Source: Leptolyngbya sp. Heron Island J (GTDB taxonomy: Bacteria > Cyanobacteriota > Cyanobacteriia > Phormidesmidales > Phormidesmidaceae). Taken from it: a DNA stretch of 64,000 nt. The translations under genes and the position numbers were made by a program. The first letter of the stretch is position 1. Each line of letters begins with the position of its first letter. The notes beneath the pieces are model-generated. The model did no database searches. It saw only the letters and a list, made by a program, of their open reading frames with translations, and was not told the origin of the DNA. The DNA is taken from assembly GCF_000482245.1 (NCBI RefSeq), contig NZ_AWNH01000079.1, forward strand, positions 1-64,000, read 5' to 3'. Below, in pieces: positions 8,210-12,605 of this stretch.

Positions 8210-9064
8210 ATGGCGCGTTTTAATTCGGCTTTTGGCTACCTTGGGGTGCCGATTGTGCTCAGCGCTATTGTGGGTTGTGGTGCGGATATTCCTGAAAGCG
8301 CAGATGCGATCGCACCCTCATCTCCTCAGCCCACCTCTGAACTCGCCAACGCCCCAACTCCATCCCAGGAAACCGACCCAGAAAAGACCTTTGAGCCAAT
8401 TCCTGGCCGTTATTGCTACTTACTCAACAACGGCATCCTGGCCACCTATCTACGGTTTACCCTGGATGACAATAACCAGATTAAAGGCGATGCCCGGTCC
8501 TCGACACAAAATGAAGAAGCCAGTTTTCTCACTAGTGCTGCCCATGCTTTTTCAGGCACCCTAACCCAGTCTGAAACCGCCGTCGATATCACCACCTGGA
8601 TTGAAGAAGAGGTGCAGAATACCAATGAAACCTGGACACTGACGGACGACACATTACAGACAAAGGACAATATCTTTAATTTGACCGACTGTCAGTTAGT
8701 TGATCCAGCATTTCAGGACTACAGTGGCCTGGAAGCTCAAGACTTGATCAATAGCGCTGCCAATCTCAGAACCCGACGAGTTGAGTTTGAACCGGACACC
8801 AACCAGGCCGTTATCAGCAATAGCGTCCTGCGCGGCGATCGAGATGTTTATCTATTGAAAGCTAACGGTGGTCAACAAATGAGCGTCAGCGTTCAATCCC
8901 TAGAAGACAATGCCGTTTTGGATGTGATTTCGCCTAGCGGATATATTCTGGCCTTTAGCGCTCTCAATGAAACCCTCATTTTGCCACACACAGGCGACTA
9001 TCGGGTCGTGATCGGTGGCACCCGTGGCAATGCAACCTACGAACTGACAATCAGTATTCAGTAG
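8210..9064 (+). CDS. Lipoprotein with PPC-like C-terminal domain
   Basis: The 284-residue protein has an N-terminal signal ending in a good lipobox (AIVGC, Cys near residue 23). A Pro/Ser/Thr-rich linker follows to about residue 65, then a middle domain of unknown type (FEPIPGRYCYLLNNGILATYLRFTLDD onwards). The C-terminal part (about 190-284) resembles a bacterial pre-peptidase C-terminal (PPC) domain, with RDVYLLKANGGQQMSVSV, LDVISPSG and TGDYRVVIGG. PPC domains are non-catalytic modules of secreted proteins. It lies 141 bp after another lipoprotein gene in the same direction. Confidence 0.75.
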   Translation: MARFNSAFGYLGVPIVLSAIVGCGADIPESADAIAPSSPQPTSELANAPTPSQETDPEKTFEPIPGRYCYLLNNGILATYLRFTLDDNNQIKGDARSSTQNEEASFLTSAAHAFSGTLTQSETAVDITTWIEEEVQNTNETWTLTDDTLQTKDNIFNLTDCQLVDPAFQDYSGLEAQDLINSAANLRTRRVEFEPDTNQAVISNSVLRGDRDVYLLKANGGQQMSVSVQSLEDNAVLDVISPSGYILAFSALNETLILPHTGDYRVVIGGTRGNATYELTISIQ

Positions 9065-9116: not shown

Positions 9117-10541
9117 CTAGCCAGGTAGATTACGGGGTGGGGTGGCATCACCCTGATAAAACTTCTGTTCTAAGTTGCCTAACCAGAGCCACAGCGCTAT
9201 ACAGATTAAGGGCATACCGCCTAAAATAGCGCCTGCTGGCCAGGTGATGGTGTTGGTAATTGCAATTACTAAGGGTATCAACGACCAAATGACTGCACTT
9301 GCGATCGCAGCACCCAGTCGAATCTTTTTAATTCGCGCCAATGCCGGACGACAGCTACCACAGTGCTTGGTATGAGAGTGATAGCGATCCATTAAAACAT
9401 CGATAGATTTCTCAGGCGGCAACGTCTGCCCAGCAAACGGATCGGCATCAAAATCACTGATCCACTTACGAAACGCCACCACATAGCGATCCGCCTGGGT
9501 TGGCAAATAACAGGTTTGCGCATAAGCGCGATGAGATGCTCTCTCCAACAGTCGCTCTTGCAGATGCAAAAAGATTTGATCATCCTCTAAGACACGATTG
9601 TTGTTCACGTGGCTATACCACCGTGGTGTTAGCTTAATAAACAAGCTCGGTAACTTAGAAGAGAATTTAAACGGGAAACGGGCAAATAAACGACATTCAC
9701 CTTTATGAGTCGGTGTTGCATAAACAACTGTCAAAGTTCGACCAAATTGCTTGGAGGTCAGGTCGTGGTACATCAAAGCAGGCGCAACAAAAGAGGTATG
9801 CTGCGATCCCAATGCGCCCCGCCGTGGACCCTCTGGCCAAAGCCCTTGAAACCCCTGTTTATCTAGAGACACAATGTCCATCTGCATCGGGGCCGCATTT
9901 TCTCGTTTGCCAACAGTTTTATGGTGAGTGTAAGGAATATGGCTGGCATCCAGAACATTTTCCAGCAGCGTCAGTGCATCATAGGGCAAATCCCGAAACG
10001 TGTTGAGCATCACCCAAGCATCTGGCTCCTCTTCCACTGGCTTAATGATCGGCACCTCTACCCGAGCCGCATTTTCTGGCTTACCCGGATAGACAAACAG
10101 TAATCCCTGTCGAACTTCTGTGGCCATGGAGGCGACACAAGCCCGATTTGACAAATGAGCCTCTCCGTCTGGGGACTGCTGCGGAATCTGCTCACAGGCT
10201 CCACTACCGGAAAAGGACCAGCCATGGTAAGGACACTCCAATTGTCCGGACTCATTAATCCGTCCCTCTGACAACGGCGCTAACCGATGGGGGCACTGAT
10301 CGGCAAAAACGCGCCAGGTCTGTGCCTGAGGTTCCCACCAAATCACTAAATCTTGATCCAGTAGGGTAAAGCGAGTTGGTTTAGCCTTATCTAAATCAGC
10401 CACGTAATGAACGGGATACCAGGCTTCAAACCAGTCAAACCGTTCTGGATCGGGTCCACCAGCTGCTAGCGGTGTGGTCTGGGATGGGGTGGTTGCAGAA
10501 TAGGTAGCCGTCATGGGGGACAGGTAAACGTTACTCGTCAT
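9117..10541 (-). CDS. PaO/Tic55-like Rieske [2Fe-2S] oxygenase
   Basis: The 474-residue protein has a Rieske domain (about residues 40-150) with the cluster ligands in CPHRLAPLSEGRI and CPYHGWSF. It is followed by a mononuclear iron site in ENVLDASHIPYTHH and a PaO-type C-terminal domain. Near residue 390 it has the CxxC motif (HTKHCGSCRP) typical of the plant PaO/Tic55/CAO-like group, where the motif can be a thioredoxin target. Two hydrophobic segments near the C-terminus suggest membrane attachment. Plant PaO opens the chlorophyll-derived ring of pheophorbide a; cyanobacterial homologues have various or unknown substrates, so only the family is asserted. An alternative ATG lies nine codons later. 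Confidence 0.9.
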   Translation of the reverse strand: MTSNVYLSPMTATYSATTPSQTTPLAAGGPDPERFDWFEAWYPVHYVADLDKAKPTRFTLLDQDLVIWWEPQAQTWRVFADQCPHRLAPLSEGRINESGQLECPYHGWSFSGSGACEQIPQQSPDGEAHLSNRACVASMATEVRQGLLFVYPGKPENAARVEVPIIKPVEEEPDAWVMLNTFRDLPYDALTLLENVLDASHIPYTHHKTVGKRENAAPMQMDIVSLDKQGFQGLWPEGPRRGALGSQHTSFVAPALMYHDLTSKQFGRTLTVVYATPTHKGECRLFARFPFKFSSKLPSLFIKLTPRWYSHVNNNRVLEDDQIFLHLQERLLERASHRAYAQTCYLPTQADRYVVAFRKWISDFDADPFAGQTLPPEKSIDVLMDRYHSHTKHCGSCRPALARIKKIRLGAAIASAVIWSLIPLVIAITNTITWPAGAILGGMPLICIALWLWLGNLEQKFYQGDATPPRNLPG

Positions 10542-10662: not shown

Positions 10663-12444
10663 CTAAAACGTCGATGACAAATAAGAAATTTGGCCAGCAC
10701 CGATAGCCATCAGGACACAGGCCATTTGCTCTACTTCCATTCTTGCGAGAGTGCGGGCAAAGTTGGTAGGCAATTTCTCTAGCAAACAGCCAGCTGCCAG
10801 TAGACAATAGCAGGGGGAGATTTGGCGATTGGTGACTATTTCTCTGACGGCATCCGTAGCCTGGTCGATTAGGATCAGTAATTTCTGACAGTAGGCATAC
10901 CAAAATGCAACCCGAAAGGCTGGTCGTTGTCTATATATATCAATTTGCTGAGGCTCAATCATCAGAGCATTGCCAACGTCTCCGGGCGTCATTCCCAATA
11001 ACAGCAAATGGATAATCTCACTTTGAAGCACGGGGATATTGGGAGGGCCTTGGTAGTCCATAACAGCGGAAAAACGCGCTAACCACCACCCCATCAGCCA
11101 GAGACAATATTTCAATCTTAGTTGGATATCATTGACTAGTTTTTTTAAGGTGGTCATCAACAGCCTGGCCAGGTCCAACATTTTGTTGAGAAAAATTCGC
11201 CAGTATGTTTGTCTAAATGCTGGCTGTCGCTGATAGAAGCTGACCTGGCCCGATTCAAGTCTCATTAAATGTGTGATGGCCCCAGGGGAGATGCCAGACA
11301 GCAACATCTCGATAATTTTGACTTGAATCGGCTCTAATTTTTTTAGGGGGCGTGTCTGATGGATATGGTCGTTAGACTGCTTCCTGGCAGGTTTGGCAAG
11401 GCTGTTCAAGGAGTTTTGGTACTTTGGTCCCTGCTGACTGTAGGCCATGGTGGTCAATATGCCCATGAGCGTTGCTTTATCGCGACGCTCCATGTTGATG
11501 CTGAGGCGTGCCACATCTAAGGGGTATCCATGCGATCGCAACCACTGCTTATACTGTGCATCCAATGCATGTACCTCAGCCATGTAGAGTTCTTTCGCCC
11601 GACGCTCAAGCATGGCAGCATCCGTATCTGGAGACATTTCCAGCCGAATAACAAATACACTGCCCTGTTTTTTCTCGATGGCTTGAATAGAGAGATTGGC
11701 AGCAGCATACTGCTGACACAGGTTTTGAAAGGATTGCCAAAACGCCTGCCAGTCAATGCGCCCCTTAAAGATCAGATCGACGATGCCTGTAGCTTGCTGA
11801 AATGCCCTGGCAAATTCACCAGACTTAAAGGTGCGTCCTTTGGGATTACGTTCTTTCTGAAAATCTTTTAGAAAGACATAGTCACAAATCACTCCTTCCA
11901 ATATCGTTGCCCGATTAGGACTCCAGCCCTGTATACAAGCTCCTGTAAACAAGGCTTTTGAAAATACGGCACCCAGCACCTGCGTATCTACCAACCAGGC
12001 GTTACTCAGATCAACGCCAGTTAAGTTGGCTCCACTGAGATTAGCTCTACACAGATTTGCCCCACTTAAATTTGCCCCACTCAGGTTGGCTCCACTTAAA
12101 TCCGACTCAGGCAAGCTAGCTTTACTTAGGTTGGCTCCTTGCAATTCCGTTCTTCCCAGCTTTATGCCTCGCAATCTAGCCTTACGTAACTTAGCTCCAT
12201 TTAAATTAGCGTCGGTTAGATCGGCTCCACTCAGGTCAGCTTTGTATAGATTAGCTCCACTCAGTTCAGCCCGCTCTAGCCTCACTCTACGTAGCCTGGC
12301 ACGACTTAGATTGGCCCCACTTAGCTGGGCTACTAGCAAGGTGGCTCCACTCAAATCGGGCCTAATTTTGGGGTTATTCAATCTCCACTGATTCCACCGC
12401 TGCACGCCCTGTTGTAGCTGCTCCAAATGCTGCAAATTAGCCAC
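10663..12444 (-). CDS. Pentapeptide-repeat protein with duplicated C-terminal module
   Basis: The 593-residue protein has a run of A(D/N)LSX pentapeptide repeats at about 30-160, giving a right-handed quadrilateral beta-helix. A middle region (about 165-330, from VICDYVFLKDFQKERNPKGR onward) occurs after pentapeptides in other cyanobacterial proteins. Beyond a linker, two related segments of about 95 residues follow each other (about 369-467 and 468-560). Shared positions include LLxG(I/M)(S/T)PG, Y(Q/R)(Q/R)(Q/R)PAFR, a Trp three residues on, and YCL-GWW/YCL-GCL. Each start looks like a helix-turn-helix of the kind in terminase-small-subunit proteins (PG...Y....PAFR); that likeness is my inference. 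The protein ends in a hydrophobic stretch. Role unknown, perhaps scaffold or nucleic-acid binding. Confidence 0.85.
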   Translation of the reverse strand: MANLQHLEQLQQGVQRWNQWRLNNPKIRPDLSGATLLVAQLSGANLSRARLRRVRLERAELSGANLYKADLSGADLTDANLNGAKLRKARLRGIKLGRTELQGANLSKASLPESDLSGANLSGANLSGANLCRANLSGANLTGVDLSNAWLVDTQVLGAVFSKALFTGACIQGWSPNRATILEGVICDYVFLKDFQKERNPKGRTFKSGEFARAFQQATGIVDLIFKGRIDWQAFWQSFQNLCQQYAAANLSIQAIEKKQGSVFVIRLEMSPDTDAAMLERRAKELYMAEVHALDAQYKQWLRSHGYPLDVARLSINMERRDKATLMGILTTMAYSQQGPKYQNSLNSLAKPARKQSNDHIHQTRPLKKLEPIQVKIIEMLLSGISPGAITHLMRLESGQVSFYQRQPAFRQTYWRIFLNKMLDLARLLMTTLKKLVNDIQLRLKYCLWLMGWWLARFSAVMDYQGPPNIPVLQSEIIHLLLLGMTPGDVGNALMIEPQQIDIYRQRPAFRVAFWYAYCQKLLILIDQATDAVREIVTNRQISPCYCLLAAGCLLEKLPTNFARTLARMEVEQMACVLMAIGAGQISYLSSTF

Positions 12445-12605
12445 GACGTCTCCTCAACTCAACCATTCAGTCGCCACCCATAAGCTGCTGGCCTACCATC
12501 ACTTAGGAGTTATTGCAAGTATAGCTATCACCAAGACAAGCTCCCCATACTCTCCGTTTAGCAGAAAACTTGCTCTGCACTTAGGTCAAGACACCATAAC
12601 AGCCA

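Follow-up and report, generated by a model that had tools for sequence, protein, structure and literature searches.

The gene analysed here lies in a 64,000-nucleotide stretch of DNA from Leptolyngbya sp. Heron Island J (the window). It is an intact open reading frame for 593 amino acids on the reverse strand (10663–12444), with a GTG start codon at 12444, a stop codon ending at 10663 and the sequence GAGGAG at 12455–12450, five nucleotides 5´ of the start. The encoded protein is modular and probably cytoplasmic. An N-terminal cap (amino acids 1–27) with helices at amino acids 4–23 and a pentapeptide beta-helix (approximately amino acids 28–190), recognised with Pfam and in the predicted structure, are encoded at 11875–12444. 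Positions 11440–11835 code for a middle domain (approximately amino acids 204–304) with the predicted order beta-alpha-beta-beta-alpha and for a helical stalk up to amino acid 335, both delimited by predicted secondary structure and conservation. Matches and alignment to paralogues place the end of the similarity with them at the motif QQGPKY, that is at the codon for amino acid 343 (11416–11418). A basic linker, which is fast-changing as judged from dN (amino acids 344–369, 11338–11415), leads to module 1 (amino acids 370–466, 11047–11337) and module 2 (amino acids 470–566, 10747–11037), each with a predicted helix-turn-helix (HTH) and long helices, as delimited by BLASTP, predicted fold and profiles. 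The protein ends with a C-terminal helical tail (amino acids 567–593, 10666–10746), taken from a predicted model of low confidence. All these parts are encoded on the reverse strand. The first-pass annotation of this DNA had described the beta-helix and the two modules correctly and had overlooked that the region around amino acids 204–304 is a separate domain.

Orthologues with both modules are encoded in Leptolyngbya sp. PCC 7375 (G162) and Adonisia turfae CCMR0081 (G347); each is 623 amino acids long, and the identity over the whole protein is 66%. In the window, the gene sits between a gene for a PAS-GGDEF-EAL regulator and a Rieske/pheophorbide a oxygenase (PaO) gene, and a response regulator and a histidine kinase are encoded nearby. 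A lipoprotein-like gene is located directly downstream of the orthologue in PCC 7375. Its homologue in the window (8210–9064, 57% over 264) is kept with the oxygenase gene intervening, and thus the position is partly conserved and the genes do not form a conserved operon. The oxygenase gene (9117–10541) is present between the two genes here and not in PCC 7375 or A. turfae. The neighbourhood contains no conserved operon or partner gene pointing to a regulated target, and no phage or defence gene was found among the neighbours scanned. In PCC 7375, visual inspection showed a transposase-like open reading frame (L044:8216-9280) close to the orthologue.

Pfam Pentapeptide (PF00805), the family of A(D/N)LXX repeats, matches the protein with an E-value of 2.2e-37 and 126.7 bits, compared with a curated cut-off of 20.2, and a right-handed beta-helix is predicted for this part with pLDDT values mostly above 90. 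The nearest solved structures are pentapeptide proteins, namely HetL (Z 26.4) and, together with HetL, Nostoc proteins (Z 26–27); the structures of MfpA and Qnr rank below this group (Z 19–21). A search of the 8.06 Mb window genome with the 593-amino-acid protein gave 101 match stretches, mostly to pentapeptide repeats. Two paralogues in this genome (L002 and L003) share amino acids 1–343 only, with 45–48% identity, and their similarity ends after QQGPKY. Two further scaffold paralogues, L004 (G000:C30) and L005 (G000:C53), contain stops inside the match and are perhaps decaying copies.

Many cyanobacteria have this combination of pentapeptide part and middle domain, a scaffold on which the tail is exchangeable. 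When genome_contigs was searched with the middle domain plus tail, 80 loci were kept; all have cyanobacterial titles, and the middle domain is conserved across them. These loci contain 86 open reading frames with the middle domain, and 73 of them have a tail of at least 30 residues, on which the tail count is based. Helical tails of type I prevail (36), followed by type II (13) and type III (6); nine tails were left unassigned. Five proteins (L081, L088, L104, L105 and L111) carry a CHAT (caspase-like) protease domain as tail, and two, from other cyanobacteria, have a winged HTH in front of a type II tail (L056:4436-5086 and L079:2908-3561; HTH_24 with 1.5e-3 and 5e-4, respectively). L051 and L052 had been attracted to the winged-HTH seed through its type II end, which they share, and were assigned to type II. 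The remaining two tails are the phage-type HTH pairs of the two orthologues, and the module profile found no further tail of this kind in the survey, bearing out the earlier impression of an unusual architecture.

The alignment of the middle domains (83 rows) was made without L087, L091, L108 and the second open reading frame of L121 and with the window protein added; owing to unknown residues, the structure alignment omits L059. A tree was built from 85 middle domains, in which the window protein groups with its two orthologues in a single clade (100/100); this clade is nested in a larger supported one (99/98), made up of 19 rows that have other tails. After the orthologues, the nearest proteins by tree path are type I proteins from the same genus group; the tree labels were assigned through text patterns and deviate a little from the tail count, for example for L104. 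The simplest history suggested by these sequences is that the tail was replaced in this genus and that the HTH domain was duplicated before the three orthologues split.

A central domain between a repeat region and a variable module is reminiscent of the TRADD-N proteins. In the work of Kaur et al. (2020, PMC7159879; 2021, PMC8195603), bacterial TRADD-N is a constant domain that occurs with pentapeptide repeats, caspases, STAND NTPases and sometimes an HTH, and architectures resembling pentapeptide plus constant domain are described as conflict systems; the 2020 paper reports the bacterial proteins to be predominantly cyanobacterial. They likewise have a central alpha/beta domain between repeats and variable module, whereas the HTH of the window protein is a phage-type tandem. 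Of 83 rows, just 3 have the serine that is conserved in TRADD-N at the turn between beta2 and beta3 (S262 in the window protein); 51 have a glycine there and 18 a gap. The elements of the predicted middle domain follow one another in a way compatible with TRADD-N; compared with the RRM-like core of TRADD-N, no fourth strand was called. PF13820 (NCOA6_TRADD-N) gave nothing over the cut-off in eight genomes or at the window gene, which is weak evidence since the model is animal-based. Based on the serine and the missing PF13820 match, we did not adopt a TRADD-N identity; by analogy, the middle domain may work like a junction domain of the TRADD-N type.

The C-terminal modules are related to each other, as had been proposed from their sequence. 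They align without gaps over 86 residues with 30% identity and a BLASTP E-value of 1e-16, module 2 being offset from module 1 by 100 residues. The local alignment score was 133, compared with a mean of 25.6 and a maximum of 67 in 2000 shuffles, none of which reached the real score. Together with the E-value, this confirms homology far beyond chance, and the pair is kept in both orthologues. Across the three proteins, the two modules have the columns Q, II, LL, G, Q, Y, FR, W, K, L, Q and L in common. The marks PG, PAFR and YCL, originally taken as the signature of the repeat, hold in part and are otherwise private to the window protein: the orthologues have PS or TL instead of PG and STFR in module 1. 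The profiles of modules 1 and 2 match each other with an hhalign probability of 98.4% and a score of 81, whereas scores against standalone relatives do not exceed 53; the modules are thus closer to each other than to these relatives, which fits an internal duplication. Since identity is 27% between the modules and 57–60% between orthologous modules, the duplication predates the split of the three orthologues.

Pfam contained no HTH match for the window modules, giving just DUF4388 (0.04–0.16) and PAX (0.15), PHROGs contained no match, and PF13022 (HTH_Tnp_1_2) matched neither the window protein nor its modules at the curated cut-off. The orthologue tail gave clearer results: in Pfam it matches HTH_23 (3e-4), HTH_29 (0.0017) and Sf6_terminase (0.0087), all below the curated cut-offs, and in PHROGs phrog_3855, an HTH DNA binding protein (7.9e-5), and phrog_2538, a terminase small subunit (0.19). 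A profile of six modules, run through 388 genomes, found the three proteins and five weaker matches. Two of these, L027 (E 2.8e-4) and L029 (E 0.0097), are HTH proteins of small size that stand alone, and L029 matches PF13022 above the cut-off and phrog_2538, terminase small subunit, with 1.3e-10. The coiled-coil-rich L026 (E 1.2e-4 with the module profile) was taken as unrelated, and L028 and L030 contain stops.

In the reverse direction, the module profile matched two of 543 open reading frames in 30 loci that had been picked by PF13022 alone; both are PF13022 open reading frames, and one encodes the L029 protein. Many of the 30 PF13022 open reading frames are TetR-like, and a motif filter removed 15 of them, which raised the hhalign probability for the module profile from 91.0% to 95.8% (E 8e-9, 99 columns, score 53). 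Among the 15 retained, L133 and L151 are still TetR-like, and L146, L150 and L152 look like other HTH kinds. None of 100 column shuffles scored as high (maximum 23). Module 2 carries most of the signal, with 95.4% alone compared with 59.8% for module 1 alone. With the module profile, searches of the sequences of solved structures reached an E-value of 0.12 at best, in 14 weak rows that include many transposases and LuxR-type HTHs; a standalone relative matched two artificial proteins only, and amino acids 185–593 matched nothing.

PF13022 has two matches in the window genome, both on other contigs than the window gene. One of these loci (G000:C68:24264-24455 and downstream) encodes L138, a PF13022-type HTH protein of 168 amino acids that adjoins a terminase-large-subunit-like gene; the gene directly after L138 has a terminase RNaseH-like domain. 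Because of this arrangement, the PF13022-type HTH looks like a packaging protein in this genome, which suggests that the standalone form acts in packaging in phages of this host. The locus is phage-like, and a DNA-polymerase-like open reading frame, recognised by eye, precedes L138.

Structure prediction gave a compatible picture. The AlphaFold2 model of the C-terminal part was built on three sequences and has a moderate overall pLDDT of 57.7, with 71–77 for the HTH of module 1 and mostly 62–79 for that of module 2. In both modules, three short helices are predicted first, then a long one and finally another, giving the same order of five helices. In the Foldseek search, rows 1–9 were the nine chains of 2ao9 (the phage protein phBC6A51), with probabilities of 0.69–0.96 and E-values of 0.23–0.95, which are not significant alone. 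VIA alignments, a second look at the Foldseek list, ranked 2ao9_F first (Z 8.7, rmsd 4.0 over 85 residues). DNA-binding domains of the LuxR/NarL type match either module with a Z of 5–7 (7.0 and below), and the terminase small subunits of phages E217 and G20C reach 5.2 and 5.0. In the viral library, weak E-values were obtained for proteins whose annotation is terminase small subunit or phBC6A51-type homeodomain. A Z of 8.7 is moderate for a helical protein, and the sequence and fold evidence should thus be read together. On this combined evidence both modules are predicted to be HTH domains of the phBC6A51 or small-terminase kind. The terminase-small-subunit likeness noticed at first thus gained support from the HTH_23 and Sf6_terminase matches of the orthologue, the hhalign comparison and the 2ao9 rows. 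A reading of the modules as transmembrane or coiled-coil helices was rejected: in the C-terminal part of the window protein, the mean hydropathy over 19 residues is 1.27 at most, and a value of 2.0 is reached just in the last 20 residues of one orthologue.

PMC11331095 reports that small terminases assemble into rings of 8–12 protomers and that, for many of them, DNA binding is presumed to reside in an HTH-like segment at the N-terminus. phBC6A51 (PDB 2AO9), the PF13022 proteins and the small terminases (TerS) share with the window modules the HTH, the long helix and the further helix, and the profile match extends over the whole module. In contrast to them, the window protein has two copies per chain attached to a large scaffold, lacks adjoining packaging genes and is missed by PF13022. 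Compared with the cyanobacterial proteins that have the same pentapeptide and middle-domain scaffold, it carries the HTH pair, found in three genomes, instead of the usual helical tail. In the available part of the pentapeptide review PMC8145042, a DNA-binding domain is mentioned a single time, with the statement that RfrA lacks one.

The distribution of the pair is narrow. Strong matches to it were found in 3 of 388 genomes of the class and in 3 of 8 of the genus. Fourteen genomes pass an E-value of 0.01, and 11 of these have weak matches (E 0.001–0.01) that were dropped; among the weak matches, L016 is a membrane transporter-like protein with repeats, and L018 has internal stops. A search of 38 relatives of G162 found the pair in G162 and G347 only. 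Plasmids and phages contained no match, and the module alignment found none in viral contigs. The orthologous open reading frame is open in all three genomes, with a dN of 0.16–0.17 in the beta-helix and middle domain, 0.26–0.31 in the modules and 0.75–0.86 in the linker (amino acids 346–369). The dN/dS ratio in the modules is approximately 0.09–0.18, a rough value since dS is near saturation between the window gene and the orthologues. By these substitution rates, purifying selection seems to act on every part but the linker. The combination of a pentapeptide scaffold with paired phage-type HTH domains is rare, conserved and a new combination of known parts; among the titles and abstract openings listed in searches of open-access literature, none concerns a pentapeptide protein with a phBC6A51-type pair.

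From the computed gene, domains, duplication, fold prediction, conservation and tail replacement, we infer DNA binding, a role of the pair as output domain and sensing by the scaffold. Directly behind QQGPKY, a tandem-duplicated domain of HTH plus long helix, predicted to be of the phBC6A51 or small-terminase type, has taken the place of the usual tail in a small clade around Leptothoe/Adonisia. The linked pair could act as a built-in dimer that occupies two adjacent half-sites on the DNA. Sensing or assembly would fall to the beta-helix and middle domain, the end that controls when or where binding happens. The linker and module 1 have a net charge of +6 each and module 2 of 0; the basic beta-helix, linker and module 1 might add DNA affinity. 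It is somewhat probable that the scaffold and linked pair make up a DNA-binding regulator, with host genes as its most likely targets.

The modules might also retain the HTH fold and serve as a helical assembly or adaptor tail that does not bind DNA specifically, which is probably the role of the other helical tails on this scaffold. Most tails on this scaffold are indeed helical-looking and have no DNA-binding match (the type I and type II tails in the survey), module 2 is net neutral, and the window modules have drifted so far that the Pfam HTH models miss them. However, the HTH positions Q, G, Y, FR and W are kept in both modules of all three proteins, and phage small terminases with this fold do bind DNA (PMC11331095). 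An adaptor tail is the less likely reading. A mere chance fusion with a prophage remnant, functionless today, would agree with the confinement to three genomes; it is very improbable given a reading frame that is open in all of them and a dN/dS well below 1 in both modules, even with dS near saturation for the deeper pairs.

Two other readings assign the protein to conflict or mimicry. A terminase-like pair could recognise packaging sites of phages or poison the packaging ring, making the protein an anti-phage device on a conflict-type scaffold. The apparent packaging role of this HTH kind in the phage-like locus of the same genome, the CHAT protease domains among the other partners of the scaffold and the similar architectures described as conflict systems in PMC7159879 and PMC8195603 would all be in line with this; but the gene has no defence or phage gene as neighbour, and the locus is kept with partial synteny and is not on a visible island, so that we regard such a device as unlikely. 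As to the beta-helix, pentapeptide proteins can mimic DNA: MfpA and Qnr are acidic DNA mimics and are among the nearest solved structures. The first-pass annotation had considered mimicry, and the helix would then compete for the HTH domains of its own protein or for gyrase. The HetL-type structures are closer, however, the window protein has extra domains, and its beta-helix (amino acids 30–170) is net basic: +6 over 141 residues puts it third from the basic end in a ranking, by composition only, of the 81 proteins, the window protein among them, whose repeat region could be used. Mimicry by this part can hardly be maintained. The preferred reading is still that of a regulator that binds DNA through the HTH pair.

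Pentapeptide proteins are abundant in cyanobacteria and mostly have no known biochemical role. A likely DNA-binding pair provides a handle on them, as its DNA targets would reveal what the scaffold controls; the architecture is interesting mainly because the role of a widespread scaffold becomes testable through these targets. There is also a small chance that a module recognising phage packaging sites was captured, duplicated and is now the output end of a conflict-type scaffold directed against phage DNA or terminase rings. If so, the protein would bind the packaging sites of invaders or join and spoil their terminase rings, and the scaffold would convert this into a response. The protein is also an example of a phage packaging fold taken up by a multidomain protein of the host, on a scaffold that swaps helical tails, CHAT protease domains, a winged HTH and a phage-type HTH pair.
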